53,442 bases of DNA, taken from assembly GCA_012519515.1 (NCBI GenBank), contig JAAYQC010000048.1:1-53442 (forward strand). The letters are read 5' to 3'. Positions 11,104-49,951 of this stretch are shown piece after piece. The DNA is from Bacteroidales bacterium. GTDB lineage: Bacteria > Bacteroidota > Bacteroidia > Bacteroidales > VadinHA17. The position numbers were made by a program, and so were the translations under genes. Position 1 is the first letter of the stretch. Each line of letters opens with the position of its first letter. The notes below the pieces were generated by a model. The model was not told where the DNA came from, ran no database searches, and saw only the letters and a list, made by a program, of their open reading frames with translations.

Positions 11104-14100
11104 TTGGGATCAGGGATATCATATAAAGATCTGCTGAAATTTATATATTTTGTATTATTCACTTCATTGCTTTTTATATCAACCGAAGTAAATAGTCAGA
11201 TATCAGTCCCGGCATCACTTCCCGATACCACGCTCAGATCACCCCTCAGGCTGCAGGATGTTTCGGGTAATCCTTATGATGTATCATCCCGGTCGGCTTT
11301 TTTCCTCAATAATCCTTCGAACATCATTTCGGGCGCAGTTTATGATCCCGACAAGAACGAATACATGATCTTCCAGAAGGTGGGATCGTTCAATTACAGG
11401 AATCCGGTATACATGTCTCCGGAAGAATACCGTAATTATCAGTTCAACAAGGGGATGAGGGAGTACTGGCAATCGAGGATAAGAGGTGAGACATCGGGTT
11501 TCAGATCAGGCCTGATACCCCAGCTGGAGATTGGCGGAGCCACTTTCGACAAGGTCTTTGGGAGCAACGTGATAAACATTGTTCCGCAGGGATCGGCAGA
11601 GCTGGTTTTCGGCATAAACATTTCAAGAACTCAGAACCCGACTCTTTCCGAGAAACTCAGGACCATTCCAACCTTCGACTTCAAGGAGAAGATCCAGATG
11701 AATGTTACCGGAACGATCGGTGACAAGATGCAGCTGGGCGTCAATTACAACACCGACGCCATGTTTGAATTTGAGAACCGTACAAAGCTTCAGTATTCGG
11801 GCAAGGAAGACGAGATAATCAAGAAGATAGAAGTGGGTGATGTAACCCTGCCTCTGCCCGGAACGCTTATCACCGGAAGCTACAGCCTTTTTGGGCTCAA
11901 GACAGAGATGCAGTTTGGCAGGCTGAATATGACCACCGTGCTGTCGCAGCAGAAGGGCGAAACATCAACCATTTCGGTCAAGGGAGGAGCCCAGTTGAGC
12001 GAGTTTGAGATATATGCTGACGACTATGAGGCCAACCGGCACTTTTTCCTTGCACATTATTTCAGGGATATTTACGACGACGCCCTGAAAAACCTGCCTG
12101 CAGTAAGTTCCGGTCTGAATATCACCAGGATAGAAGTATGGATAACAAACAAGACAAGCAGTTATGATGAGACAAGGAACATAGTGGCCTTTTCCGACCT
12201 TGCCGAGAACAGCAGCCATATTTATAACAGGGTCCCTGAGTTCCAGGCCCCGCCGGGAGCCCCGATCTTTCCTGACAACGCGGCCAACCAGCTTTACAAC
12301 CAGCTTCAAACAAATTATTCCGGGATGAGGGATGTTGACCAGGTTATCAATGTCTTTTCTACCTTGTACCCGGGCTTTCAGATTGGACGCGACTATGAGA
12401 AGATAGAAAATGCAAGGAAGCTGAATGACAGGGAATACACCCTGAACCCCATGCTTGGATATATATCGCTGAATACCGCACTTAATACCGATGAAGTTCT
12501 CGCCGTTGCTTTTGAGTACACCCTGAACGGCCAGGTTTACAAGGTGGGAGAGTTTTCGACCGATGGTATAACGGCCCCGCAGGCTCTTGCCCTGAAACTG
12601 ATCAAGGGTACAACTCTCAGTCCGAAGTACCCTACCTGGGACCTGATGATGAAGAATATCTATTCTCTTGGTTCAGGAAGGCTCGAAAGGGGTGATTTCC
12701 AGCTTAATATTCTCTATGAAGATGACAAGACGGGGAATGCCATCAATTACCTGCCCGAGGGAAGGATAGCAAACAAAGTACTTCTTCAGGTTCTTGGCCT
12801 CGATAATCTCAACAGTCAGCAGGACCGTCAGCCCGACGGGTATTTTGACTTTATCGACGGAGTCACCATCAATGTAAGCAGGGGTAAGATAATCTTCCCG
12901 GTGCTTGAGCCTTTCGGCAGTTATCTTAAGAAACAGATTGGCGACAATCAGATAGCTGCAAAGTATGTCTTCCAGGAGCTTTACGATTCTACGCAGACAC
13001 TTGCCCGGCAGATGGCCGAGAGGAACAAGTTCAAGATGACTGGGCAATATTCGTCGGAATCCGGTTCGGAGATAAGGCTCAATGCCACCAATATTCCTGC
13101 CGGGTCAATAATAGTAACCGCCGGCGGGGTTACCCTTACCGAAAACGCTGATTACACGGTCGATTACAACATGGGTGTTGTGACGATCATCAACTCGGCC
13201 CTTATTGAATCGAATACTCCCATCCAGGTTTCGCTCGAGAGCAACCAGTTTTTCGGCTTCCAGACCAAAACCCTGGTAGGGACTCATCTCGATTACAGGA
13301 TCTCGGATAATTTCAACGTGGGTGCAACGCTGTTGCACCTTAATGAACGACCATATACCCAGAAGGTCAATTTCGGTGAAGAGCCGATTTCGAATACTAT
13401 CTGGGGGCTGAATACATCATACAGGGGGCAGTCGCAGTTTCTGACAAAACTCATTGACAAAATCCCTCTTCTTGATACAAAAACACCGTCAAGCATTTCA
13501 TTCAACGGGGAATTTGCAGAGCTGATTCCTGGCCATTCACGCGCAATCTCAAGTGCAGGCAACTCTTATATTGATGATTTTGAGTCGAGTGAAATCCCGC
13601 TCGACCTTAAATCTTTCAATGCCTGGTCAATTTCAAGCATCCCGCAAGGCCAGGATCAGCTGTTCCCCGAAGCTTCCCTCAACAACAATCTTGCCAGCGG
13701 ATACAACAGGGCTAAGATCTCGTGGTACGTTATCGACCCCTTGTTTCTGAGAAACGGTTCCTCGACACCCGGGCACATCAAGCAGGATGCTTCCACGCAG
13801 TCGAGCCATTTTGTAAGGGAGGTATATGAAAATGAGATTTTCCCTAACAGGGAAAGCACCAGCGGGATCCCGACTACCTTATCGGTGCTTAACGTTGCAT
13901 ATTACCCGGGAGAGAGGGGTCCCTACAACTATGATACCTATCCGGGTCCCCTGTCGCGCGGTATGAACTCCTCCGGCCTGCTCAACGACCCTCAGTCGAG
14001 ATGGGGAGGCATGATGAGGGAGGTTTTAACCAGCGATTTTGAAACGGCAAATATCCAGTATATAGAATTCTGGATGATGGACCCCTTTGTTGAGGATCCC

Positions 14101-17100
14101 TCACACCAGGGCGGCGACCTTTACTTTAACCTCGGTAATATCTCGGAAGACATTCTCAAGGACTCGCGGAAGAGTTTTGAGAACGGGCTTCCCGGCTCAC
14201 CTGATCTTCAGAATGTTGATTCGACGGCCTGGGGAAGGGTTCCCACGGTGCAGTCGGTGGTTCATGCCTTTGACAACAATTCAGAGTCGAGAATGTACCA
14301 GGACGTTGGTCTTGACGGACTCAGGAACGAGGATGAACGGGTGTTCTTCGCGGATTACCTCCAAAAGGCTGAAGGCATCCTCAGTCCTGAAGCCTACACT
14401 GAGCTGCTGAAGGATCCGTCGAACGATGACTTTCACTATTTCAGGGGTTCCGATTACGATATGCAGGAGCTGGGAATACTCGACAGGTACAAGAAATATA
14501 ACGGACTGGAAGCCAACTCGCCAACTTCCGAGATGTCGTCAGAATCATATCCCACAACCGGTTCCACTCTTCCCGACATGGAGGATATAAACCGCGACAA
14601 CACGCTCAATGAAACGGAGAGCTATTATCAGTACAAGATAAGCCTGAGACCCGAAGACATGAAGGTGGGTATGAACTATATAGTAGATGAGATAGAGCCT
14701 ACGGTCAAGATGGCAAACGGAGCCGAATCGAAGGTAAAATGGTATCAGTTCAGGATACCGGTTACTGAATATCAGAGACGCGTGGGAGTCATCAGCGATT
14801 TCAAGTCGATAAGGTTCATGAGGATGTTTCTCAGGAATTTCAACGATCCGGTGATAATGAGGTTTGCCGAGCTTAACCTGGTCAGGGCGGAGTGGAGAAA
14901 ATACAATCTCACTTTCATGGAGGGCGGCGAGAGGATCAGTGTTCCCGAGCCTGAGGACGGCACTTTTGAGATCAGTTCGGTAAGTATAGAGGATAACGCG
15001 GGCAAGAAGCCGGTTAACTACGTGCTTCCTCCGGGCTTCAACAGGGTTGTCGATCCGCAGAATCCCCAGCTCAGGCAGCTCAACGAACAATCGATGGTCA
15101 TCAAGGTGCTTGATCTTGCCGATGGAGACGCCCGTGCCGCGTACAGGAATGTAAACCTCGATTTCAGGCAGTATCGCAGCCTCAGGATGGAGGTACATGC
15201 TGAAGCTCTTACCGGCCAGCCTCTCTACGATAATGAGCTCACTGCATTTATAAGGCTGGGGTCTGATTACAAGTCGAATTTCTATGAATATGAGATACCT
15301 CTGAAGCTAACCCCTCCCGGCAGCTATGATAACGACTCCGAAGAAGAAAGGGCGATAGTATGGCCTGAGGCAAACAGCTTCAATATCGATCTGACCGTGC
15401 TTCAGGAGGCCAAAAAGGAAAGAAACCGGAGGCTGCAGGAAAGCGGGGCCTCGCTGAGCATTTCCGATGTGTTTGCCTTCAGGGACGATTCAAACAGGGT
15501 GTATGTGTGCGGTAACCCCAACCTGAGCAATGTAAAGGTGATAATGGTGGGTGTCAGGAATCCTATAAAGACCAGGAATCCGGGCGTGGATAATGGTGAT
15601 TCAAAATCGGCTGAAATATGGGTGAACGAGTTAAGGCTTAGTGATTTCAGGGAAGACGGGGGATGGGCGGCCAATGCACATCTGCAGACCAGGCTTGCCG
15701 ACCTGGGTACTATCGACATTGTTGGGCAGGCAAGCACTCCCGGATGGGGAAGCATCGACAAAAAGGTCAACGAAAGAAGCAAGGAAGAGGTTCTCAAGTA
15801 TGACATCTCCTCTACAATGGAGCTGGGTAAGTTCTTCCCCGAGAAAACCGGGGTACGACTTCCGGTGTATGTTGGCTATTCAGAAACCAGGATAAAGCCT
15901 CAGTACAATCCGCTCGATCCCGACATCACCCTGAAAGATGCTCTTGAGGAAGCTCCCGACAAAAAGGCGAGGGATTCAATAAAAACCATATCGGAGGATT
16001 ATTCGAGGAGGAAAACCATCTCGATAAACAATGCCGGGATTACCAAAAGGGGAGAGAAGCCCAGGCCATGGGATCTGGCAAACTTCAGTGTCAACTATAC
16101 CTTCAACGAAGTTTACAGGAGCAATACCAGGACCGAGATCGACCTCGAAAGGAACTATAAGGGAGGAATCAATTACAACTATGAAGCCCAGCCAAAGAAT
16201 ATAATGCCGTTCAGGAATGTCAAATTCCTTAATTCGCCTATATTCAGGATAATAAAGGATTTCAACTTCTATCCCTTCCCGAAGAGTATTTCATTCAGGA
16301 CAGATATAGGCAGATATTACAATGAAGTAAAGACAAGGAATATAAACAACCCGAACCTGCTAATCACGCCGACATTCAGGAAGGATTTTGAATGGACCAG
16401 GATGTTTGACGTCAAGTATGATCTGACCAGGCAGCTTAAGATCGATTTCACATCGACTAATATAGCGAGGATTGATGAGCCGGAAGGGGCCGCCGACCGC
16501 CGGAGGTATCAGAGCGACTACGAGAACTGGTGCGATTCGGTAATGAACAACATCAAGCGTTTTGGAAGGACTACTTCCTACAACCATTTTATCAACGCGA
16601 CCTACAATGTTCCCATAAACAAGCTTCCGGGGCTTTCGTGGGTCACTGCCACCGCGAGGTACGGATCTGACTATTCCTGGCTTGCAGGAGCGCTGTATCC
16701 CGATTCGATGAACATCAACCTGGGGAATTCGATCAGGAACCGTAACGAGCTGTCGCTGTCGGGTACTGCCAACCTGGCGAGCCTGTACTCCAAATCGAAG
16801 TTTCTTAAGAGCGTTGAGGACAACACCAGGCCGGGGGCGGTCAGAAGGATGCAGACAGAATACAGGACTGTGGTATTCACAAGGGAAAATGTGAATTTCA
16901 GGGCTAAGGTAATGAGACCTCTGGTTCACAATCTAAAGACAAAAGACGTAAAGGTTATTATAACCAGGAAAGACGGCTCTGAAGTCAGGGGCAATGTGGA
17001 GATAGTCAGTGAAAACAGGGTTAATTTCACTACCGATGAGGCCGTGGAAGGCACCCTTGTGACAATAGAGGGGAGGGTCCCCAAAAAGCGCAATCCCATG

Positions 17101-18534
17101 ACTGTTACCGGCGAGTATTTACTGCGTGCGATGATGGGTGTCAGGTCGGTCAGTATGACTTATACCTCATCGCAGGGCCAGTTCCTGCCGGGATTCCTTC
17201 CGGAAGCAAAATTCCTTGGCGGAACGAAGATAAACAATGTAACAGCCCCGGGTCTGCCCTTCATGCTGGGATTGAGCGACAGGAAATTTTTTGATAAGGC
17301 CATGGCGAACGGCTGGCTTACAACCGACACCCTGCTCAACACACCTGCAGTGTACAACAGCCGCAGGGATCTGTCGATCAGAAGCGTTGTTGAGCCATTT
17401 CCCGGATTGAAGATCGATATCAATGCCGACAGGAGGTTCCTGGAGAATGAAAGTTCCTATTATACCGCCGATTTCAACGGCAACTTCCCCGACAGCACCA
17501 GGAACAGGGTTATCAGCGGAAATTTCAGTATCTCGGTAATATCGTGGGGTACGGCCTTCGAAAAGATATCAAAGGACAACAACTATGTATCGGCCACTTT
17601 CGAGGAATTCAAGAAGAATACCCTGATCATTTCAAACCGCAGGGCTCAGGCAAGGCGGGAATTGGATCCAGGATACGAACCTGACATTGATCCCGAGACC
17701 GGCCAGCCCCTGACCGATGGTTTCAAGAGCGGTTACGGGAAGACATCGAGGGAAGTTCTGATACCTGCTTTCTTCGCCGCGTATACTAAATCGGATCCGC
17801 ATAAGGTCGATCTGTCGACCTTCCCTTCGGCTTTCAGGATGATGCCCAACTGGAGAATAACATTCGACGGCTTCTCGAAATTTGAGTTCGTTCAGAAGTT
17901 TTTCAGATCCATTAACATCACCCATCAGTACAGGAGCGTTTACCAGATCGGGTCGTATACCACCAACCTTAATTACTTCGTTGATGGCAACGGGATTAAT
18001 AGTATCAGGGACCTTCAGAAGAACTTCATACAGCAGTATGAGATAAACACCGTGACCGTCAGCGAGCAGTTCAGCCCGATGATAAACGTCGACATGAACT
18101 GGAAGAGCAATCTCACATCGCGGTTTGAATGGAGAAAATCAAGGACGGTATCACTTAATCTCACCGGCAACCAGGTAACCGACAGCCGTATCAACGAGCT
18201 GGTAGTTGGCGCGGGTTACCGTTTTGATGATGTCAGGATAACGGTAAAGACGGGAGGAGCGCAGAAGACGCTGAAGAGCGATCTGAACTTAAGGCTTGAT
18301 CTGTCGATCAGGGATAACAAGACAGTGGCAAGAAAGCTTATTGAGGATGTCAATCAGCCCGTGGCCGGTATCAAGGTTATGACCATGGGAGCAACGGCCG
18401 ATTATGTACTGAGCGACCGTTTCAATCTCCAGATATTTGCCGACCATAACATGAATAATCCCTTTGTGGCAAACACCTTTCCTACATCCAACACAAGTTT
18501 TGGCTTCAGTCTGAAATTCACCCTCGCGCAATAG
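11104..18534 (+). CDS. sprA: T9SS outer membrane translocon SprA/SovA
   Basis: This 2476-residue protein is the giant beta-barrel through which type IX secretion cargo crosses the outer membrane. Length, an N-terminal hydrophobic signal segment (about residues 8-31, ending near EVNSQ), the tail FGFSLKFTLAQ with a beta-barrel-like end, and conserved internal stretches (GMREYWQSRIRGE, NIVPQGSAELVFGI, YIDDFESSEIPLDLKS) fit SprA. Many alternating Tyr/Phe-rich strands are visible throughout. No ATG is available: an in-frame stop lies at 11086, and the first usable codon is TTG 11104, which gives a complete signal peptide. It sits between ruvA and gcvH. Other T9SS parts (PorK/L/M/N) are outside the window. 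Confidence 0.95.
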   Translation: MGSGISYKDLLKFIYFVLFTSLLFISTEVNSQISVPASLPDTTLRSPLRLQDVSGNPYDVSSRSAFFLNNPSNIISGAVYDPDKNEYMIFQKVGSFNYRNPVYMSPEEYRNYQFNKGMREYWQSRIRGETSGFRSGLIPQLEIGGATFDKVFGSNVINIVPQGSAELVFGINISRTQNPTLSEKLRTIPTFDFKEKIQMNVTGTIGDKMQLGVNYNTDAMFEFENRTKLQYSGKEDEIIKKIEVGDVTLPLPGTLITGSYSLFGLKTEMQFGRLNMTTVLSQQKGETSTISVKGGAQLSEFEIYADDYEANRHFFLAHYFRDIYDDALKNLPAVSSGLNITRIEVWITNKTSSYDETRNIVAFSDLAENSSHIYNRVPEFQAPPGAPIFPDNAANQLYNQLQTNYSGMRDVDQVINVFSTLYPGFQIGRDYEKIENARKLNDREYTLNPMLGYISLNTALNTDEVLAVAFEYTLNGQVYKVGEFSTDGITAPQALALKLIKGTTLSPKYPTWDLMMKNIYSLGSGRLERGDFQLNILYEDDKTGNAINYLPEGRIANKVLLQVLGLDNLNSQQDRQPDGYFDFIDGVTINVSRGKIIFPVLEPFGSYLKKQIGDNQIAAKYVFQELYDSTQTLARQMAERNKFKMTGQYSSESGSEIRLNATNIPAGSIIVTAGGVTLTENADYTVDYNMGVVTIINSALIESNTPIQVSLESNQFFGFQTKTLVGTHLDYRISDNFNVGATLLHLNERPYTQKVNFGEEPISNTIWGLNTSYRGQSQFLTKLIDKIPLLDTKTPSSISFNGEFAELIPGHSRAISSAGNSYIDDFESSEIPLDLKSFNAWSISSIPQGQDQLFPEASLNNNLASGYNRAKISWYVIDPLFLRNGSSTPGHIKQDASTQSSHFVREVYENEIFPNRESTSGIPTTLSVLNVAYYPGERGPYNYDTYPGPLSRGMNSSGLLNDPQSRWGGMMREVLTSDFETANIQYIEFWMMDPFVEDPSHQGGDLYFNLGNISEDILKDSRKSFENGLPGSPDLQNVDSTAWGRVPTVQSVVHAFDNNSESRMYQDVGLDGLRNEDERVFFADYLQKAEGILSPEAYTELLKDPSNDDFHYFRGSDYDMQELGILDRYKKYNGLEANSPTSEMSSESYPTTGSTLPDMEDINRDNTLNETESYYQYKISLRPEDMKVGMNYIVDEIEPTVKMANGAESKVKWYQFRIPVTEYQRRVGVISDFKSIRFMRMFLRNFNDPVIMRFAELNLVRAEWRKYNLTFMEGGERISVPEPEDGTFEISSVSIEDNAGKKPVNYVLPPGFNRVVDPQNPQLRQLNEQSMVIKVLDLADGDARAAYRNVNLDFRQYRSLRMEVHAEALTGQPLYDNELTAFIRLGSDYKSNFYEYEIPLKLTPPGSYDNDSEEERAIVWPEANSFNIDLTVLQEAKKERNRRLQESGASLSISDVFAFRDDSNRVYVCGNPNLSNVKVIMVGVRNPIKTRNPGVDNGDSKSAEIWVNELRLSDFREDGGWAANAHLQTRLADLGTIDIVGQASTPGWGSIDKKVNERSKEEVLKYDISSTMELGKFFPEKTGVRLPVYVGYSETRIKPQYNPLDPDITLKDALEEAPDKKARDSIKTISEDYSRRKTISINNAGITKRGEKPRPWDLANFSVNYTFNEVYRSNTRTEIDLERNYKGGINYNYEAQPKNIMPFRNVKFLNSPIFRIIKDFNFYPFPKSISFRTDIGRYYNEVKTRNINNPNLLITPTFRKDFEWTRMFDVKYDLTRQLKIDFTSTNIARIDEPEGAADRRRYQSDYENWCDSVMNNIKRFGRTTSYNHFINATYNVPINKLPGLSWVTATARYGSDYSWLAGALYPDSMNINLGNSIRNRNELSLSGTANLASLYSKSKFLKSVEDNTRPGAVRRMQTEYRTVVFTRENVNFRAKVMRPLVHNLKTKDVKVIITRKDGSEVRGNVEIVSENRVNFTTDEAVEGTLVTIEGRVPKKRNPMTVTGEYLLRAMMGVRSVSMTYTSSQGQFLPGFLPEAKFLGGTKINNVTAPGLPFMLGLSDRKFFDKAMANGWLTTDTLLNTPAVYNSRRDLSIRSVVEPFPGLKIDINADRRFLENESSYYTADFNGNFPDSTRNRVISGNFSISVISWGTAFEKISKDNNYVSATFEEFKKNTLIISNRRAQARRELDPGYEPDIDPETGQPLTDGFKSGYGKTSREVLIPAFFAAYTKSDPHKVDLSTFPSAFRMMPNWRITFDGFSKFEFVQKFFRSINITHQYRSVYQIGSYTTNLNYFVDGNGINSIRDLQKNFIQQYEINTVTVSEQFSPMINVDMNWKSNLTSRFEWRKSRTVSLNLTGNQVTDSRINELVVGAGYRFDDVRITVKTGGAQKTLKSDLNLRLDLSIRDNKTVARKLIEDVNQPVAGIKVMTMGATADYVLSDRFNLQIFADHNMNNPFVANTFPTSNTSFGFSLKFTLAQ

Positions 18535-43603: not shown

Positions 43604-44617
43604 ATGATGGAACTCAGAACGACATTCAGCATCGATCCGTCTCCCTCGAAGATCAGTTACAGCACACCTGTGATGTTCATTGGCTCATGTTTTGCAACCG
43701 CTATCGGCAGCCATCTCCGGGAGGGCAGAATGCCGGTAATGATTAATCCGGCAGGGACGGTCTACAACCCATTTTCAGCCGGGAACACCCTTGATGCGAT
43801 TATCTCATCACCCCGGTGTGAAAGGGACGGTCTTTACAGGCATGGGACCAGGTGGATAAGCTTTGATCACTACACTGATTTTTCATCTGACGATCCTCGA
43901 AAGCTTATTGAAAAGATAAGCGCTATGGAGGAGGAAGCCCGGGTATTTCTTTCGGGTGCCGGATTCCTTTTTGTAACATTCGGGACAGCAAGGGTGTACA
44001 GATGGAAGGAGAGCGGGAGGATAGTGTCGAACTGTCATAAAATCCCTTCGTCCTTTTTCAGCCACGAACTTCTGACACCCGATGAGATTGTATCGTTCTG
44101 GAGCGGGCTTCTCGACAGACTGAGAGAGTTTAACCCTGAACTGAAAGTGGTTTTCACAATCAGTCCTGTGCGTCACTGGAAAGATGGCGCTCACGGGAAT
44201 CAGATAAGTAAATCAGTTCTTTTTCTGGCAGTCGAAAAGCTCCTCTCTCATTCTTCGTCCCCGGGATATTTCCCTGCCTACGAACTGGTTATGGACGATC
44301 TCCGGGATTACCGGTTTTATGCTTCCGACATGCTTCATCTGTCGGAGACTGCCGTGGATTATATCCGGGCTGCATTTGACAAATGTTATTTTGACCGGGC
44401 TGCCATGGAATTGTGGAATGAAGTGTCGGGGATTTCAAAGGCGATTGAACACAGGATACTGACCGGCGACACGAATGAGATAAGGAAGTTTGCAGAGGGC
44501 ATGCTGGCAAGGATTGAAAGAATAAGAAAAAAGCACAAGTCTCTCGGTCTCGACAGCGAAGCAGACTATTTCAGGACTCTTCTTTCAGGGACACACGTTA
44601 CAGGTAGTAAGGAATGA
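43604..44617 (+). CDS. GSCFA-domain protein
   Basis: The 337-residue protein carries the name-giving motif GSCFA (FIGSCFATAIG, about residues 27-37), then NPAGTVYNPFS and FVTFGTARVYRW. GSCFA domains look like SGNH/GDSL-type lipase or esterase relatives, but their role is not established; the SGNH-like motif SPVRHWKDGAH and DMLHLSETA may supply the remaining active-site residues. It begins 10 bases after the hydrolase stop, so the two enzymes may act on related lipids. Confidence 0.85.
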   Translation: MMELRTTFSIDPSPSKISYSTPVMFIGSCFATAIGSHLREGRMPVMINPAGTVYNPFSAGNTLDAIISSPRCERDGLYRHGTRWISFDHYTDFSSDDPRKLIEKISAMEEEARVFLSGAGFLFVTFGTARVYRWKESGRIVSNCHKIPSSFFSHELLTPDEIVSFWSGLLDRLREFNPELKVVFTISPVRHWKDGAHGNQISKSVLFLAVEKLLSHSSSPGYFPAYELVMDDLRDYRFYASDMLHLSETAVDYIRAAFDKCYFDRAAMELWNEVSGISKAIEHRILTGDTNEIRKFAEGMLARIERIRKKHKSLGLDSEADYFRTLLSGTHVTGSKE

Positions 44618-44656: not shown

Positions 44657-45550
44657 TTATTTCAGTGAGTCGACAACCGTCCGGAATTCCTCAGGATTTC
44701 TTGTGATTATAATATTTTCGGGAATTCTCTTTTCATCTGACTCGGGATAATCGGTTAAAATAATTTTCCTTATCAGAAGTGACTTTCCGATGCTGCTGAA
44801 ATAGCTCATATTCTTTTTTGAGAAGTCGAATGAATATGAATTGACTATAAGGTATTCGAATTGTTTTATCTTATGTATTTCTATAATCTCTGAGGCAGGA
44901 AGGATGCCGCCTGTGAATATGGTGTCGAAGCCTCTCTTTTTTAGCAAGTATTTGTAGAACAAAAAATTGTTTTCTGACAGGTTGTCAGATGTATTGATCA
45001 TGGCAACCGATGTCTTCGGCTTCACGGCAGGAGCTGCAAGGCTGATGTCCTCAAGGATAAGAATTTGCCTGATCACATTCCTTACGAACTGTTCCTGGGC
45101 TCTTGAAAGACCACCTGTCTGCCAGAGCAGTCTGGCTTTTTCGAGCAGGGGACACAGGTATTTTATATAGGCTTCTTCCAGCCCGTATTTACTGACAAAG
45201 GGTTCAAGTGCTTCCCTGAACAGGGATTCATTGAAATTAATGCCTGACATCAGTATTTTGCCGGGGCTGTTCCCGCCTGTTTCGTGCCGGCCGCTGATGG
45301 TCATCACCCTTTCAGTGAGTTCCTCCTCGCTCAGCTTTGCTATTTTGGAAATTTTCAGTCCGTTTCTGTTCAGGTAAGCAACGTTCAGTATCTTTTTCAG
45401 TTCGGTTTCGCTGTAACTGCGGATATTGGACTCGGTCCGGTCGGGTTCCAGTATCCTGTACCTTTTTTCCCAAATCCTTATAGTGTGTGCCTTTATCCCT
45501 GAAAGGTTTTCCAGATCCTTTATCGTAAAAACATTAGTCCCTTCTTCCAT
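44657..45550 (-). CDS. MerR-family regulator with a cobalamin-domain-like C-terminus
   Basis: The 297-residue protein has an N-terminal MerR helix-turn-helix (TIKDLENLSGIKAHTIRIWEKRY), then a helical middle, then an alpha/beta domain resembling the B12-binding part of CarH-type light-sensing repressors (FLFYKYLLKKRGFDTIFTGG). The histidine that binds cobalamin in CarH (in an ExxxH motif before the LLF helix) is missing; the segment reads TSDNLSENN. It may therefore sense something else or nothing. I start it at ATG 45550 (MEEGTNVF); a GTG at 45577 is also in frame. Targets are unknown; no photolyase or carotenoid gene is in the window. Confidence 0.75.
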   Translation of the reverse strand: MEEGTNVFTIKDLENLSGIKAHTIRIWEKRYRILEPDRTESNIRSYSETELKKILNVAYLNRNGLKISKIAKLSEEELTERVMTISGRHETGGNSPGKILMSGINFNESLFREALEPFVSKYGLEEAYIKYLCPLLEKARLLWQTGGLSRAQEQFVRNVIRQILILEDISLAAPAVKPKTSVAMINTSDNLSENNFLFYKYLLKKRGFDTIFTGGILPASEIIEIHKIKQFEYLIVNSYSFDFSKKNMSYFSSIGKSLLIRKIILTDYPESDEKRIPENIIITRNPEEFRTVVDSLK

Positions 45551-45697
45551 AGCTTTCTGAATAAATAAGTTTAACACTACTACACCTTAACATTAACAAT
45601 CACTAAAGAGATTGTTTCCCGCTTCATAAACATATTCGGTCATATACTGAGAGCTATGCGGAATTACCCCCATATCCGCAAATTCCGGACCAATAAG

Positions 45698-46066
45698 CTA
45701 TTCCGGGTTCTCTATCATCACTTTCCTGACAATTCTTGTTCCGTCGACGAATCCAATGGTAACCAGGTACATTCCTCTTACAGGATTTTTAAGAATAACT
45801 TTCGTTGCAGTAACCGGATTTGTATAAGTGGCTCTGAAAATATCCTGTCCGATCATATTGGTAACCTTTACAGCGCTGATTTCCCTGTCGGCTTTTATTG
45901 AAAATGAATTTTCCCTGACAGGTACGGGGTAAATTGTAATATTTGTTACAGGGCTCTCCCTGGTAAAGGCTTTTTGCGGAAAATTTCTGACGATATTGGT
46001 GCTATCCTTCTGGGAGTGAAGGGTTAAAGGGAATAATATGAAAATAATGAGTAGAAATTGCTTCAT
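45698..46066 (-). CDS. Small orphan protein with a T9SS type A sorting domain
   Basis: The 122-residue product has a signal peptide (MKQFLLIIFILFPLTLHSQ) and, after about 30 residues, an almost complete type A sorting domain: ITIYPVPV, NMIGQDIF, GMYLVTIGF, RIVRKVMIE. In usual cargo this domain sits at the C-terminus of a large secreted enzyme or adhesin and is removed during export by the T9SS. Here it is nearly the whole mature protein. The start is ATG 46066. It has its own promoter-like box before it and follows kdsB on the same strand. Confidence 0.75.
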   Translation of the reverse strand: MKQFLLIIFILFPLTLHSQKDSTNIVRNFPQKAFTRESPVTNITIYPVPVRENSFSIKADREISAVKVTNMIGQDIFRATYTNPVTATKVILKNPVRGMYLVTIGFVDGTRIVRKVMIENPE

Positions 46067-46101
46067 ACGCACCCTGTCATGTTCTTTTTAAAATGCCGGT
46101 C

Positions 46102-46133
46102 TAAAGTTAGGCATTTTTATTATTCTGATCAAA
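46102..46133 (-). promoter_or_regulatory. Promoter-like sequence before the sorting-domain gene
   Basis: On the minus strand TTTG (46130-46133), 20 bases, then TAACTTTA (46102-46109). This is one base off TAnnTTTG. It overlaps the 3' end of kdsB. Confidence 0.4.
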
Positions 46134-46889
46134 GATTTTTTCCACTCTTTCGAGATCATCCGGCGTGTCAATTCCAATGTTTTCCCAGAGGGTAAGGGCG
46201 GTTTTTATCCTGAATCCGTTCTCGAGCCATCTGTTCTGTTCAAGCGATTCAGCTTTCTCGAGTGGGCTTCGGGGCAGGGATGTAAGGCGTTTCAGTATAT
46301 CCGTCCTGTAGCCGTAAAGGCCTATGTGTTTGTAATATGTATGTCTGGTGATCCATTCGGCTGCCGGGACATCCCTGAGGTAGGGTATTACCGATCTGCT
46401 GAAGTATATCGCGTATCCGGAAAGGTCGATGACTACCTTCGGATGGTTTGGATTGGCAAGGTCCTCTCCGGCTTCCACCTTCCGCACCAGGGTGGCAATT
46501 TCAACCGACGGGTCGTCAAAGCATGATGCAAGCAGGTTGATTTGTTCGGGTCTGATAAAAGGCTCATCACCCTGGATATTAATCACGGCATCGGGGCTGA
46601 AGCCTTCGATGGCGGCAATCTTTTCAGCAGCCTCGGCGCATCTGTCGGTACCGCTCTGGTGGGCGGAAGAAGTCATTACAGCTTTGCCTCCGAAGCCTGT
46701 AACGGCATCATGAATTCTCTGGTCATCGGTAGCAACATATACGGTTTCGAGCGAAAGGGAAGCCTGTTCATATACTCTTCTGATCATTGTTTTGCCTCCT
46801 ATCATCACCAGTGGTTTCCCCGGGAACCTTGTAGATGCGTATATTGCAGGAATAATGCCCGCGATATGATATCCTCCTGTATTCTTCAT
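46107..46889 (-). CDS. kdsB: 3-deoxy-manno-octulosonate cytidylyltransferase
   Basis: KdsB activates Kdo to CMP-Kdo for lipopolysaccharide core synthesis. The 260-residue protein has the nucleotide-binding start IPAIYASTRFPGKPL, DDQRIHDAV, SGTDRCAEA, NIQGDEPFI and the IGIDTPDDLERVEKIF end. It is transcribed away from the sigma-54 regulator gene, with a possible -7 box at 46926. Confidence 0.96.
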   Translation of the reverse strand: MKNTGGYHIAGIIPAIYASTRFPGKPLVMIGGKTMIRRVYEQASLSLETVYVATDDQRIHDAVTGFGGKAVMTSSAHQSGTDRCAEAAEKIAAIEGFSPDAVINIQGDEPFIRPEQINLLASCFDDPSVEIATLVRKVEAGEDLANPNHPKVVIDLSGYAIYFSRSVIPYLRDVPAAEWITRHTYYKHIGLYGYRTDILKRLTSLPRSPLEKAESLEQNRWLENGFRIKTALTLWENIGIDTPDDLERVEKIFDQNNKNA

Positions 46890-46962: not shown

Positions 46963-48195
46963 ATGAAAGATATTCAGAGCATAAAGCAGCGATTTGGCAT
47001 AATAGGCAATTATTCAGGGCTCAACAGGGCCATCGACATTGCCGTTCAGGTGGCTCCAACCGATCTGTCGGTACTCATAACAGGGGAAAGCGGGACCGGT
47101 AAGGAGGTTTTTCCGCAGGTTATCCACAGTTACAGTACCAGGAAACACGGGCAGTACATTGCTGTTAACTGCGGAGCCATACCTGAAGGAACCATCGACT
47201 CTGAATTATTCGGTCATGAAAAGGGAGCCTTTACCGGAGCCACTGAAAGCAGGAAGGGGTATTTTGAAGTTGCCGACAAAGGAACCATCTTCCTCGATGA
47301 GGTTGCCGAACTGCCTCTTTCAACCCAGGTCCGTTTGCTAAGAGTCCTTGAGACAGGTGAATTCATCCGTGTAGGCTCATCGAAAGTTCAGAGAACCGAT
47401 GTAAGGGTGATAGCTGCCAGCAATGTCGATGTGGCGAAAGCTATCGAGCATAATAAGTTCAGGGAGGACCTCTTTTACCGGCTAAACACGGTACCGATAA
47501 AGATCCCGCCGCTGAGGGAAAGGGGTGAGGACATTTTTCTCCTTTTCAGAAAGTTCGCGGTCGATTTTGCCGAGAAATACAGGATGCCTTCCATACGGCT
47601 GAGCAACGAGGCAAAGGATCTTCTATTAAGCTATTCGTGGCCGGGGAATGTGCGTCAGTTAAAGAATATTACAGAGCAGATATCAATAATTGAAAGCGAG
47701 AGGGAAATAAGCTATGAAGTGTTGCATGCTTACCTTCCCGACTACACCGGAGTCAAGTTGCCGGCCGTGATCAAAAGGGATGACGACAGATCATTCTCAT
47801 CCGAAAGGGAGATACTCTACAAGATCTTGTTCGACATGAAGAGTGATATGAACGATCTCAAGAACCTTGTTCTTGATCTCATTAAATCGGGCGAGATAGA
47901 CATGAGGCTTCATGAAAACAATTCAGGAATTATCAGAAACCTGATAAGGGACACAGGCAGAAGCGATTCTGTTGTAACAGCCGAGGCCCGTGACCTGAGT
48001 TTCGCTCCCCACCCCGGAACCAACATACAGGATACCGAGGAAGTGGTTGAAGAATCGCTTTCCCTTGCCGACAAGGAGATGGAGATGATAAAAAAAGCTC
48101 TGGAGAAGTACAACGGGAAAAGAAAGCTCGCTGCTCAGGAGCTTGGTATCTCGGAGCGCACTCTTTACCGAAAAATCAAGGAGTATGAAATCTGA
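46963..48195 (+). CDS. Sigma-54-dependent transcriptional activator without receiver domain
   Basis: The 410-residue protein is an AAA+ activator of sigma-54 RNA polymerase. Walker A is GESGTGKE (41-48), the sigma-54-contacting loop is GAFTGA (88-93), Walker B is GTIFLDEVAELP, and the C-terminus is a Fis-type helix-turn-helix (LAAQELGISERTLYRKIKE). There is no receiver or PAS domain before the AAA+ domain (residues 1-20 only), so it is not a classic two-component regulator; its activity may be set by a partner or by level. It is followed by lptE, so it may belong with envelope genes. Confidence 0.9.
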   Translation: MKDIQSIKQRFGIIGNYSGLNRAIDIAVQVAPTDLSVLITGESGTGKEVFPQVIHSYSTRKHGQYIAVNCGAIPEGTIDSELFGHEKGAFTGATESRKGYFEVADKGTIFLDEVAELPLSTQVRLLRVLETGEFIRVGSSKVQRTDVRVIAASNVDVAKAIEHNKFREDLFYRLNTVPIKIPPLRERGEDIFLLFRKFAVDFAEKYRMPSIRLSNEAKDLLLSYSWPGNVRQLKNITEQISIIESEREISYEVLHAYLPDYTGVKLPAVIKRDDDRSFSSEREILYKILFDMKSDMNDLKNLVLDLIKSGEIDMRLHENNSGIIRNLIRDTGRSDSVVTAEARDLSFAPHPGTNIQDTEEVVEESLSLADKEMEMIKKALEKYNGKRKLAAQELGISERTLYRKIKEYEI

Positions 48196-48727: not shown

Positions 48728-49951
48728 ATGAATAAAAGCGACTTTCTGAACCTGATGGGTGGAAATACGCCTGTCGACAGGCAGGTTCTCGCTGAGTTAA
48801 GCGAACTGGTAAACATATATCCGTATTTTCAGACAGCCCATATGCTTCTCCTCAAGAGTCTCAGGGATAATTCAGATATCCGCTTCGAGAATCAGCTCAG
48901 GAATTCCGCCATTCACATTGCCGACAGGGAAGTGCTTTTCAACTATCTGCAGATAGCGCCTTCGATTGTTGAGAAAGAGATTACTGATATTCAGAAGGAA
49001 ACAATTGCAGTCCCGCCTGAACCGGAAATACAACCTGTTGAAATTCCTGAACCTGAAGTGCAACCTGCCGAAATTCCTGAACCGGAAATACAACCTGTTG
49101 AAATTCCTGAACCGGAAATACAACCTGCCGAGGTTCCTGAGCCTGAAGAGCAACCTGTTGAAGTACCTGAACCGGAGATACAACCCGTTGAAATTCCTGA
49201 ATCTGAAGTGATTCCTGAATCTGTCGAGGGCGATTTTGCCCAGACCATTCTTGATTCGGCGATGAACAGCCAGAATTTCATTGATGAGATAGAAAGGGAT
49301 TCAAGGCCCAGACCGGTGAAGGATCAGCCTGACAGTATGGCGAGCATTCTGGAAAGGACCGTTGTCGGAACGATTGATCCTGAAATGGACGACAGCTACT
49401 TTGGCCCGGACTTGTTCATTCCGGTGAGTTATGATGAACCTGAAACGGAAGAAGAGGAGGAAGAAATTTTCTATATGGATCCGGGATTCTTATTTACTCC
49501 CCGCGGTGAACCTGAGGAAGAGCCTGTAACTGTTGAGGAAGAGCCTGTAACTGTTGAAGAAGAGCCTGTAACTGTTGAGGAAGAACCGGTTATCACTGAG
49601 GAAGAGTTGGTTGCCATTGAGGAAGTGCCGGAAATTTCTGCAGAGGAACTCACCAGATCTGACATTGATCAGAAAAGGAAGGAACAGGCTGACCTTATCG
49701 ACAGGTTTATCATGGCAAATCCGAGAATCATTCCCCAGATTGAAAAGCCGGCTTCCCCGAACGAAGATCTGTCGAAGCCATTTACGGAGGAGCACGGAGG
49801 ATTTGTCACTGAAACCCTGGCAAGGATCTATGTCACTCAGGGTTATTATTCCAAGGCAATAGATATTTATGAGAAATTAAGTTTGAAATTTCCGCAAAAA
49901 AGTAATTACTTTGCGGCTCAAATTGAAAAGATAAGAGAGATTATAAAATAG
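48728..49951 (+). CDS. Bacteroidota protein with long Pro/Glu repeats and a TPR-like end
   Basis: The 407-residue protein has an N-terminal helical region (MNKSDFLNLMGGNTPVDRQ, IYPYFQTAHMLLLKSL), two Pro/Glu-rich repeat blocks (residues 97-156 with a 10-residue PEPEIQPVEI unit, and about 263-304 with an EEEPVTV unit), and a C-terminal TPR-like motif (VTQGYYSKAIDIYEKLSLKFPQKSNYFAAQIEKI). I do not recognise a named function. The order lptE-this gene-secG is found in other Bacteroidota as I recall. No signal peptide is visible, so the protein is probably cytoplasmic. Confidence 0.8.
   Translation: MNKSDFLNLMGGNTPVDRQVLAELSELVNIYPYFQTAHMLLLKSLRDNSDIRFENQLRNSAIHIADREVLFNYLQIAPSIVEKEITDIQKETIAVPPEPEIQPVEIPEPEVQPAEIPEPEIQPVEIPEPEIQPAEVPEPEEQPVEVPEPEIQPVEIPESEVIPESVEGDFAQTILDSAMNSQNFIDEIERDSRPRPVKDQPDSMASILERTVVGTIDPEMDDSYFGPDLFIPVSYDEPETEEEEEEIFYMDPGFLFTPRGEPEEEPVTVEEEPVTVEEEPVTVEEEPVITEEELVAIEEVPEISAEELTRSDIDQKRKEQADLIDRFIMANPRIIPQIEKPASPNEDLSKPFTEEHGGFVTETLARIYVTQGYYSKAIDIYEKLSLKFPQKSNYFAAQIEKIREIIK
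49016..49195 (+). repeat. 30-base coding repeat (decapeptide PEPEIQPVEI-type)
   Basis: Six consecutive 30-base units encode PEPE(I/V/E)QP(V/A)E(I/V). DNA differences are few and partly synonymous, so this is a recent tandem expansion. Being a multiple of three, copy changes keep the frame. Confidence 0.85.
49514..49639 (+). repeat. 21-base coding repeat (EEEPVTV-type)
   Basis: Units of 21 bases, GAGGAAGAGCCTGTAACTGT plus T, are repeated: three near-identical units, then increasingly diverged ones. They encode an acidic seven-residue repeat. Confidence 0.8.

Follow-up and report, generated by a model that had tools for sequence, protein, structure and literature searches.

The short gene studied here encodes a T9SS type A sorting domain (CTD) behind a signal peptide and a linker, and the evidence leaves us practically certain that it is a maintained gene and no decaying remnant. 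From the comparisons below, we put the probability that the sorting domain itself is the functional part of the protein at roughly 0.85; judged from sequence, selection appears to act on the tag as the product, and the cell appears to need this tag and not a cargo. T9SS sorting domains are regarded as address labels that can be removed and that may drift in sequence. A tag that is kept alone and is nearly as conserved as the CMP-Kdo synthetase KdsB, encoded just upstream, implies that CTDs can be functional products in their own right, and such a protein would provide a natural minimal ligand for asking about recognition by PorV and SprA, CTDs acting in trans, and the sensing of T9SS load.

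Within the window (the whole stretch of 53,442 nucleotides that was analysed), the open reading frame occupies exactly 45698-46066 on the minus strand, opens with an ATG at 46066, and yields a product of 122 amino acids (Table 1). The only alternative in-frame start is a GTG six bases upstream of this ATG, and a start farther upstream was rejected because none lies in frame past that codon. The Sec-type signal peptide was called by eye from the sequence; the protein contains no cysteine and hence no lipobox, and a lipoprotein was therefore rejected. The preliminary description of this DNA saw a tag without cargo, preceded by about 30 residues. The stand-alone tag holds up, while the stretch ahead of the domain is shorter, about 24 residues (19 to 42), variable and partly disordered, with no passenger domain in it. 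Three extra residues follow the domain at the C terminus.

Table 1. Positions in the window of the stand-alone gene, its parts, its neighbours, and sprA
Feature	Position	Strand	Basis or remark
sprA/sov, T9SS outer-membrane translocon	11104..18534	+	TIGR04189, 2722 bits
GSCFA-family protein	43604..44617	+	such a protein follows kdsB directly in genome G029
MerR-type regulator, downstream neighbour	44657..45577	-	weak B12-binding match, below cut-off
Stand-alone type A sorting-domain protein	45698..46066	-	open reading frame, TIGR04183, Pfam, genus homologues
Type A sorting domain, residues 43-119 (Ig-like beta-sandwich, conserved VTNMIGQ stretch, K115)	45710..45940	-	
Mature N terminus and variable, disordered linker, residues 19-42	45941..46012	-	alignment, model, identity, dN/dS
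Predicted signal peptide, residues 1-18	46013..46066	-	by eye; model helix 3-18
Gap between kdsB and the gene, 40 bp	46067..46106	-	no TAnnTTTG in gap or last 60 bp of kdsB
kdsB, CMP-Kdo synthetase, upstream neighbour	46107..46889	-	
Sigma-54 activator, divergent from kdsB	46963..48195	+	

The assignment as a sorting domain is based on profiles and on a predicted fold. TIGR04183 matches residues 45 to 118 of the 122 (E = 1.2e-7; 31.6 bits, above the cut-off of 23), and PF18962 of Pfam scores just below its own cut-off (25.7 bits against 27; E = 1.5e-5), a score by which the domain is a divergent member of the family. Across the order, TIGR04183 matches all 22 aligned rows at E ≤ 0.001. In an AlphaFold model built on a 30-row genus alignment, pLDDT averages more than 90 across the domain and less than 50 for residues 23 to 37. 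In a Foldseek search with this model, the best T9SS matches were the CTDs of RemA and RemZ (8gl6, 8gl8) from the SprA-PorV translocon, and the top rank of all went to an unrelated alpha2-macroglobulin domain. VIA-align placed the CTDs of RemA (Z = 11.5), RemZ (10.6), NucA (10.5), and mirolase (10.4) first, with rmsd values of 1.6 to 1.9, followed in fifth place by PorZ (9.8), which is level with an unrelated glycoside hydrolase, and closely by other Ig folds such as DUF3244 (9.3). A profile search against PDB sequences returned nothing significant, the best match reaching 15.6 bits (E = 0.12). K115 is invariant in 30 of 30 genus rows and 22 of 22 order-wide rows and, from the ranges aligned by VIA-align (model residues 42-119 with RemZ 1040-1114), probably lies at or near RemZ Lys1110. 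The genus has YPVP in place of the YPNP of the compared tags.

The way in which the parts of the protein have drifted points to the domain as the part under selection. Among 20 genomes picked by hand before the comparison from those genus members that have the stand-alone locus together with PorU and C25-like matches, mean pairwise identity was 67.7% for the domain, 29.9% for the linker, and 49.6% for the signal peptide, with KdsB at 70.4%. As yardsticks for CTD drift we had two, PorU and one cargo family, which we label C25-like, whose protein matches part of the PorU profile and whose orthology we assume from length and match. In both of them drift is faster at the C-terminal end than in the preceding part (41.5% for the C25-like CTD against 60.1% for the rest of the fetched part; 56.3% for the last 85 residues of PorU against 66.0%), whereas in the stand-alone protein the tag is the slow part. 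Pair by pair, identity is higher for the stand-alone domain than for the C25-like CTD in 190 of 190 comparisons and higher than for the end of PorU in 186 of 190. Column entropy lies below that of the C25-like CTD in 62 of 80 aligned columns, and the columns with excess conservation include R51, N53, T69, I72, Q74, D75, P84, P95, D108, and V113. When dN of each region was set against overall dS and pooled over the 36 close pairs with dS below 1.0, the ratio came to 0.105 for the domain, 0.368 for the linker, and 0.189 for the signal peptide; over the 84 pairs with dS below 1.5 it was 0.132 for the domain and 0.426 for the linker (dS was finite in 241 of the 435 pairs and saturated in 194).

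A full-length copy of the gene is present in 33 of 36 same-genus genomes, and the 32 copies in relatives match at E values of 5e-56 to 3e-21, are 42-74% identical, and have open frames 124-145 codons long; four further genus genomes, reached through kdsB, all have it, which brings the count to 37 of 40. The frame is intact in all 37 copies, and none of them carries a cargo domain. This genus-wide conservation excludes a chance open reading frame, and the recurrence of the same short length in many assemblies led us to reject a truncated pseudogene or an assembly artefact. Of the three genomes that lack the gene, two (G013 and G032) also yielded no kdsB. In the third, G029, the GSCFA gene comes directly after kdsB, both the stand-alone CTD gene and merR being missing from the interval, and the CTD gene was found nowhere else in this genome, which is 98% complete and has sprA, PorU, and at least 10 CTD matches. 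A scan of genome records returned 59 loci, several from the same assemblies as in the 36-genome search, which comprise 54 full-length stand-alone loci, two halves of a single gene cut by contig ends, and three ordinary CTDs in long frames. Among the 54, kdsB was seen in 51 and merR in 49: L111 and L113 retain the gene with no adjacent kdsB, the L073 locus starts at a contig end, and no merR was seen in L081, L090, L096, L108, and L112, of which L096 ends shortly after the gene. The gene is thus not simply travelling with one neighbour. At L016:1850-2263, a short tandem repeat (its frames read LLTPHTSHLTPHSS...) lies behind the stand-alone gene, in the place where most relatives have merR.

The arrangement with kdsB suggests that the two genes may be transcribed together. 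In 29 of 30 genus loci, those with kdsB, the gap between kdsB and the gene measures 40-60 bp (median, 51), and in none of these 29 does TAnnTTTG, which we take to be the Bacteroidetes -7 element, occur in the gap or within the final 60 bp of kdsB; the short gap and the missing element both fit co-transcription. A sigma-70 scan found no minus-strand site, and on these two negative results a promoter of its own was rejected. No RNA family reached its gathering score between 44500 and 47200. The tight spacing is a feature of the genus, the gap being more variable in other families. The window also holds lpxC/fabZ and lptE, and the open reading frame at 48728-49951 contains tandem repeat arrays at 49016-49201 (30-bp units) and 49512-49625 (21-bp units) that give Pro/Glu-rich repeats.

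Beyond the genus, a profile search of 393 genomes of the order, in which 11-15 candidates were scored per genome and the best loci were then read, showed that other families, too, have stand-alone CTDs of comparable length following kdsB. Copies linked to kdsB occur in 11 family codes (f1, f17, f18, f37, f56, f57, f58, f63, f73, f85, and f105), so that the check proposed in the preliminary description, a search for the same short gene beside kdsB in relatives, came out positive in the genus and in 10 further family codes. The columns without any variation across the 22 order-wide rows, four of which come from the genus, are M1, Q19, P47, P49, F55, N70, G73, G98, Y100, and K115. When kdsB 3' flanks were instead chosen without a CTD search, a stand-alone copy was found in 10 of 145. 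These 145 flanks, out of 175 kdsB-bearing genomes, consist of 140 that were fetched (one of 203 bp and three of 843-1164 bp) and five positives (G000, G051, G071, G092, and G197); the count leaves out G069, G145, G175, G180, G182, and unlisted genomes, including the known carriers G052 and G119, as well as the flank matches of G165 (a cargo protein) and G149 (on the opposite strand and cut by the end of the flank). The profile scan of the flanks would miss a cargo protein with its CTD farther than 1.3 kb from kdsB; a cargo-domain scan of these flanks found cargo in G165 only.

In two loci from one genome each, kdsB is followed by a CTD protein with a large cargo (L037:544-1839 in f90 and L208:209-1351 in f15), which we call lamin-tail-like from its look. 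The preliminary description had named relatives with a large cargo domain in the same gene as the observation that would make this a truncated pseudogene; such proteins are absent from the genus (0 of 37) and exist far away, where they bear on the origin of the gene and not on its present function. They make an ancestor with cargo, followed by ancient loss of that cargo, a possible origin. In a tree of 63 CTDs, whose 84 columns leave the deeper forks without resolution, the kdsB-linked stand-alone rows alone require seven label changes; with four stand-alone rows added whose kdsB is out of view, the 29 rows require four changes, of which the starred branches force one. A single clade for these 29 rows was not rejected (p-AU = 0.229). 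With so few columns, the tree neither shows nor excludes a single origin of the stand-alone form.

The preliminary description took sprA in the window as a sign that a T9SS is likely present, and this is borne out by the TIGR04189 score and by the rest of the same genome, in which we also found PorU and at least 16 other CTD matches at E ≤ 0.001 (the CTD counts for this genome and for G029 are lower bounds, the TIGR04183 scan of this genome having left 45698-46066 itself unlisted). SprA accompanies all 12 known carriers in the order sample; since it is present in 187 of 198 genomes of the order, this co-occurrence is uninformative. An essential role in the T9SS was rejected, as G029 has sprA and PorU and lacks the gene. 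The gene is accessory, and the T9SS does not generally depend on it, as seen from G029 and from the mere 10 of 145 flanks that carry a copy.

We give nearly even odds to an action of the free CTD on the T9SS carrier or translocon. The protein would reach the periplasm through its Sec-type signal peptide, fold there, and act in trans with the same surface as the CTDs of cargo proteins, its most likely partners being the PorV carrier and the SprA pore, which it would bind as a small client or ligand. Its effect at PorV/SprA could be to adjust or report the occupancy of the carrier, or it could be a tiny protein destined for release. LPS is the anchor of T9SS-exported proteins, and transcription together with CMP-Kdo synthesis would tie the dose of the CTD protein to LPS supply. 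The complete scheme, in which the free CTD from the kdsB transcript serves as a pseudo-substrate at PorV/SprA and couples T9SS traffic to LPS supply, is doubtful, and we offer it as speculation. In the passages of Lauber et al. (2024, PMC10994853) on which we draw, type A CTDs are bound inside the SprA pore by loops of PorV, and the near-invariant Lys1110 of RemZ touches PorV; the remaining conserved CTD residues set the fold, and the main role of the lysine may lie elsewhere. With K115 at or near this position, the stand-alone protein could still enter the PorV/SprA site. In Porphyromonas gingivalis, as far as the text used of Mizgalska et al. (2024, PMC11285876) goes, the L-beta3-beta4 loop and the C terminus are needed for T9SS function, and added C-terminal histidines are tolerated on PorU; by alignment, both elements have counterparts in the stand-alone protein, which has three extra C-terminal residues. 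These extra residues, the YPVP in place of YPNP, and the absence of the gene from G029 count against a role at the T9SS site. The free form of the RgpB CTD dimerizes by strand swap, according to part of a 2016 report (PMC4804311), and by analogy the free CTD described here might also pair with other CTDs.

A job outside the T9SS remains a serious rival to this action at the carrier or translocon, although we consider it unlikely: the Ig-like fold may have been co-opted for a small periplasmic or secreted protein, for example, in the envelope or LPS work to which kdsB belongs. The linkage to kdsB in 11 family codes, the lpxC/fabZ and lptE genes of the window, the structural nearness of other Ig folds such as DUF3244, and the YPVP motif of the genus are all in keeping with co-option, and so is Fjoh_0547 of Flavobacterium johnsoniae, a CTD protein of 112 amino acids that, in the portion of PMC7712824 used here, is reported in supernatants even without SprA or PorV; for at least one stand-alone CTD, this argues against an obligate role at the translocon. 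Against co-option, the order-wide rows retain the hallmarks of the tag (K115 and a TIGR04183 match, each in 22 of 22), and in L111 and L113 the gene persists with no kdsB beside it. The existence of Fjoh_0547 also makes too strong the statement of the preliminary description that the domain is known only as a C-terminal tag of larger cargo. Like the window protein, Fjoh_0547 is small and leaves almost no space for cargo beside its CTD; it differs in coming from Flavobacterium and, if it is one of the 12 f124 loci described below (a guess from length), in belonging to a separate clade with other neighbours.

Signalling of the kind proposed for PorA (PGN_0123) of P. gingivalis, where a surface CTD protein feeds a signal into T9SS gene expression, strikes us as improbable here. 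PorA is likewise small, with a signal peptide and a CTD, and PMC7712824, in the part consulted, reports that it affects T9SS genes via PorXY-SigP and that its CTD binds PorV; however, PorA has a FimH-like domain before its CTD, and the window protein has none, nor any room for one in the approximately 24 variable residues before residue 43. It is more improbable still that the linker is the product, with PorU cutting before the domain to leave an N-terminal surface peptide of about 20 residues, one of the options raised in the preliminary description. PorU is present in the genome, and Q19 and D21 are invariant in the 30 aligned genus copies (Q19 in the 22 order-wide rows as well), yet the linker is the least conserved part of the protein, with 29.9% identity and dN over dS of about 0.4, and this variability counts against a surface peptide. 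That the gene is a functionless fusion remnant, or a truncated pseudogene of a cargo gene, as the preliminary description had also considered, we find scarcely credible: the large-cargo CTD proteins behind kdsB in L037 and L208 offer a source for such a remnant, but all 37 genus frames are open and free of cargo, dN over dS of the domain is about 0.1, and the domain is nearly as conserved as KdsB.

The type A CTDs of RemA, RemZ, NucA, and mirolase (8gl6, 8gl8, 8glk, and 8qb1) share the fold of the domain in the window protein and tag larger substrates, whereas the product of the window gene consists of the tag itself, in conserved form. PorU and PorZ resemble the window protein as T9SS machinery proteins that keep an uncleaved CTD; they differ in being large, and in PorU the last 85 residues are less conserved than the stand-alone domain (56.3% vs 67.7%). 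The "orphan CTDs" of PMC12618676 were rejected as the same thing, since, in the portion of that paper used, the term denotes type B substrates that have no shuttle gene linked to them. A search of open-licence papers retrieved nothing on a stand-alone CTD gene beside kdsB.

Stand-alone CTDs recur beside other gene sets, so that small "T9SS sorting domain-containing proteins" should not be dismissed as fragments. In family f124 of the same class, 12 stand-alone type A CTDs (L325, L327, L329-L332, and L334-L339; three of them 112 amino acids long from the first Met) form a clade of their own (95/83), in a tree whose deeper forks are weak on 84 columns. A gene for a LuxE-type acyl-protein synthetase lies beside eight of the 12 by motif, with Pfam confirmation in L336, and no kdsB was found beside any of them. 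At L039:1501-1896 and L040:1296-1718 (f43), stand-alone CTDs stand directly behind aminotransferase-V (sufS-like), sufE, and FeS_assembly_P (DUF59-like) genes, with no kdsB in view. The genome of the window itself encodes, at L260:504-1046 (C116), a small CTD protein with a stretch of about 60 residues (GGSASYSVGQVVYTS...) before the tag, and CTDs in open frames of similar size to this one occur in many genus genomes among the matches listed.
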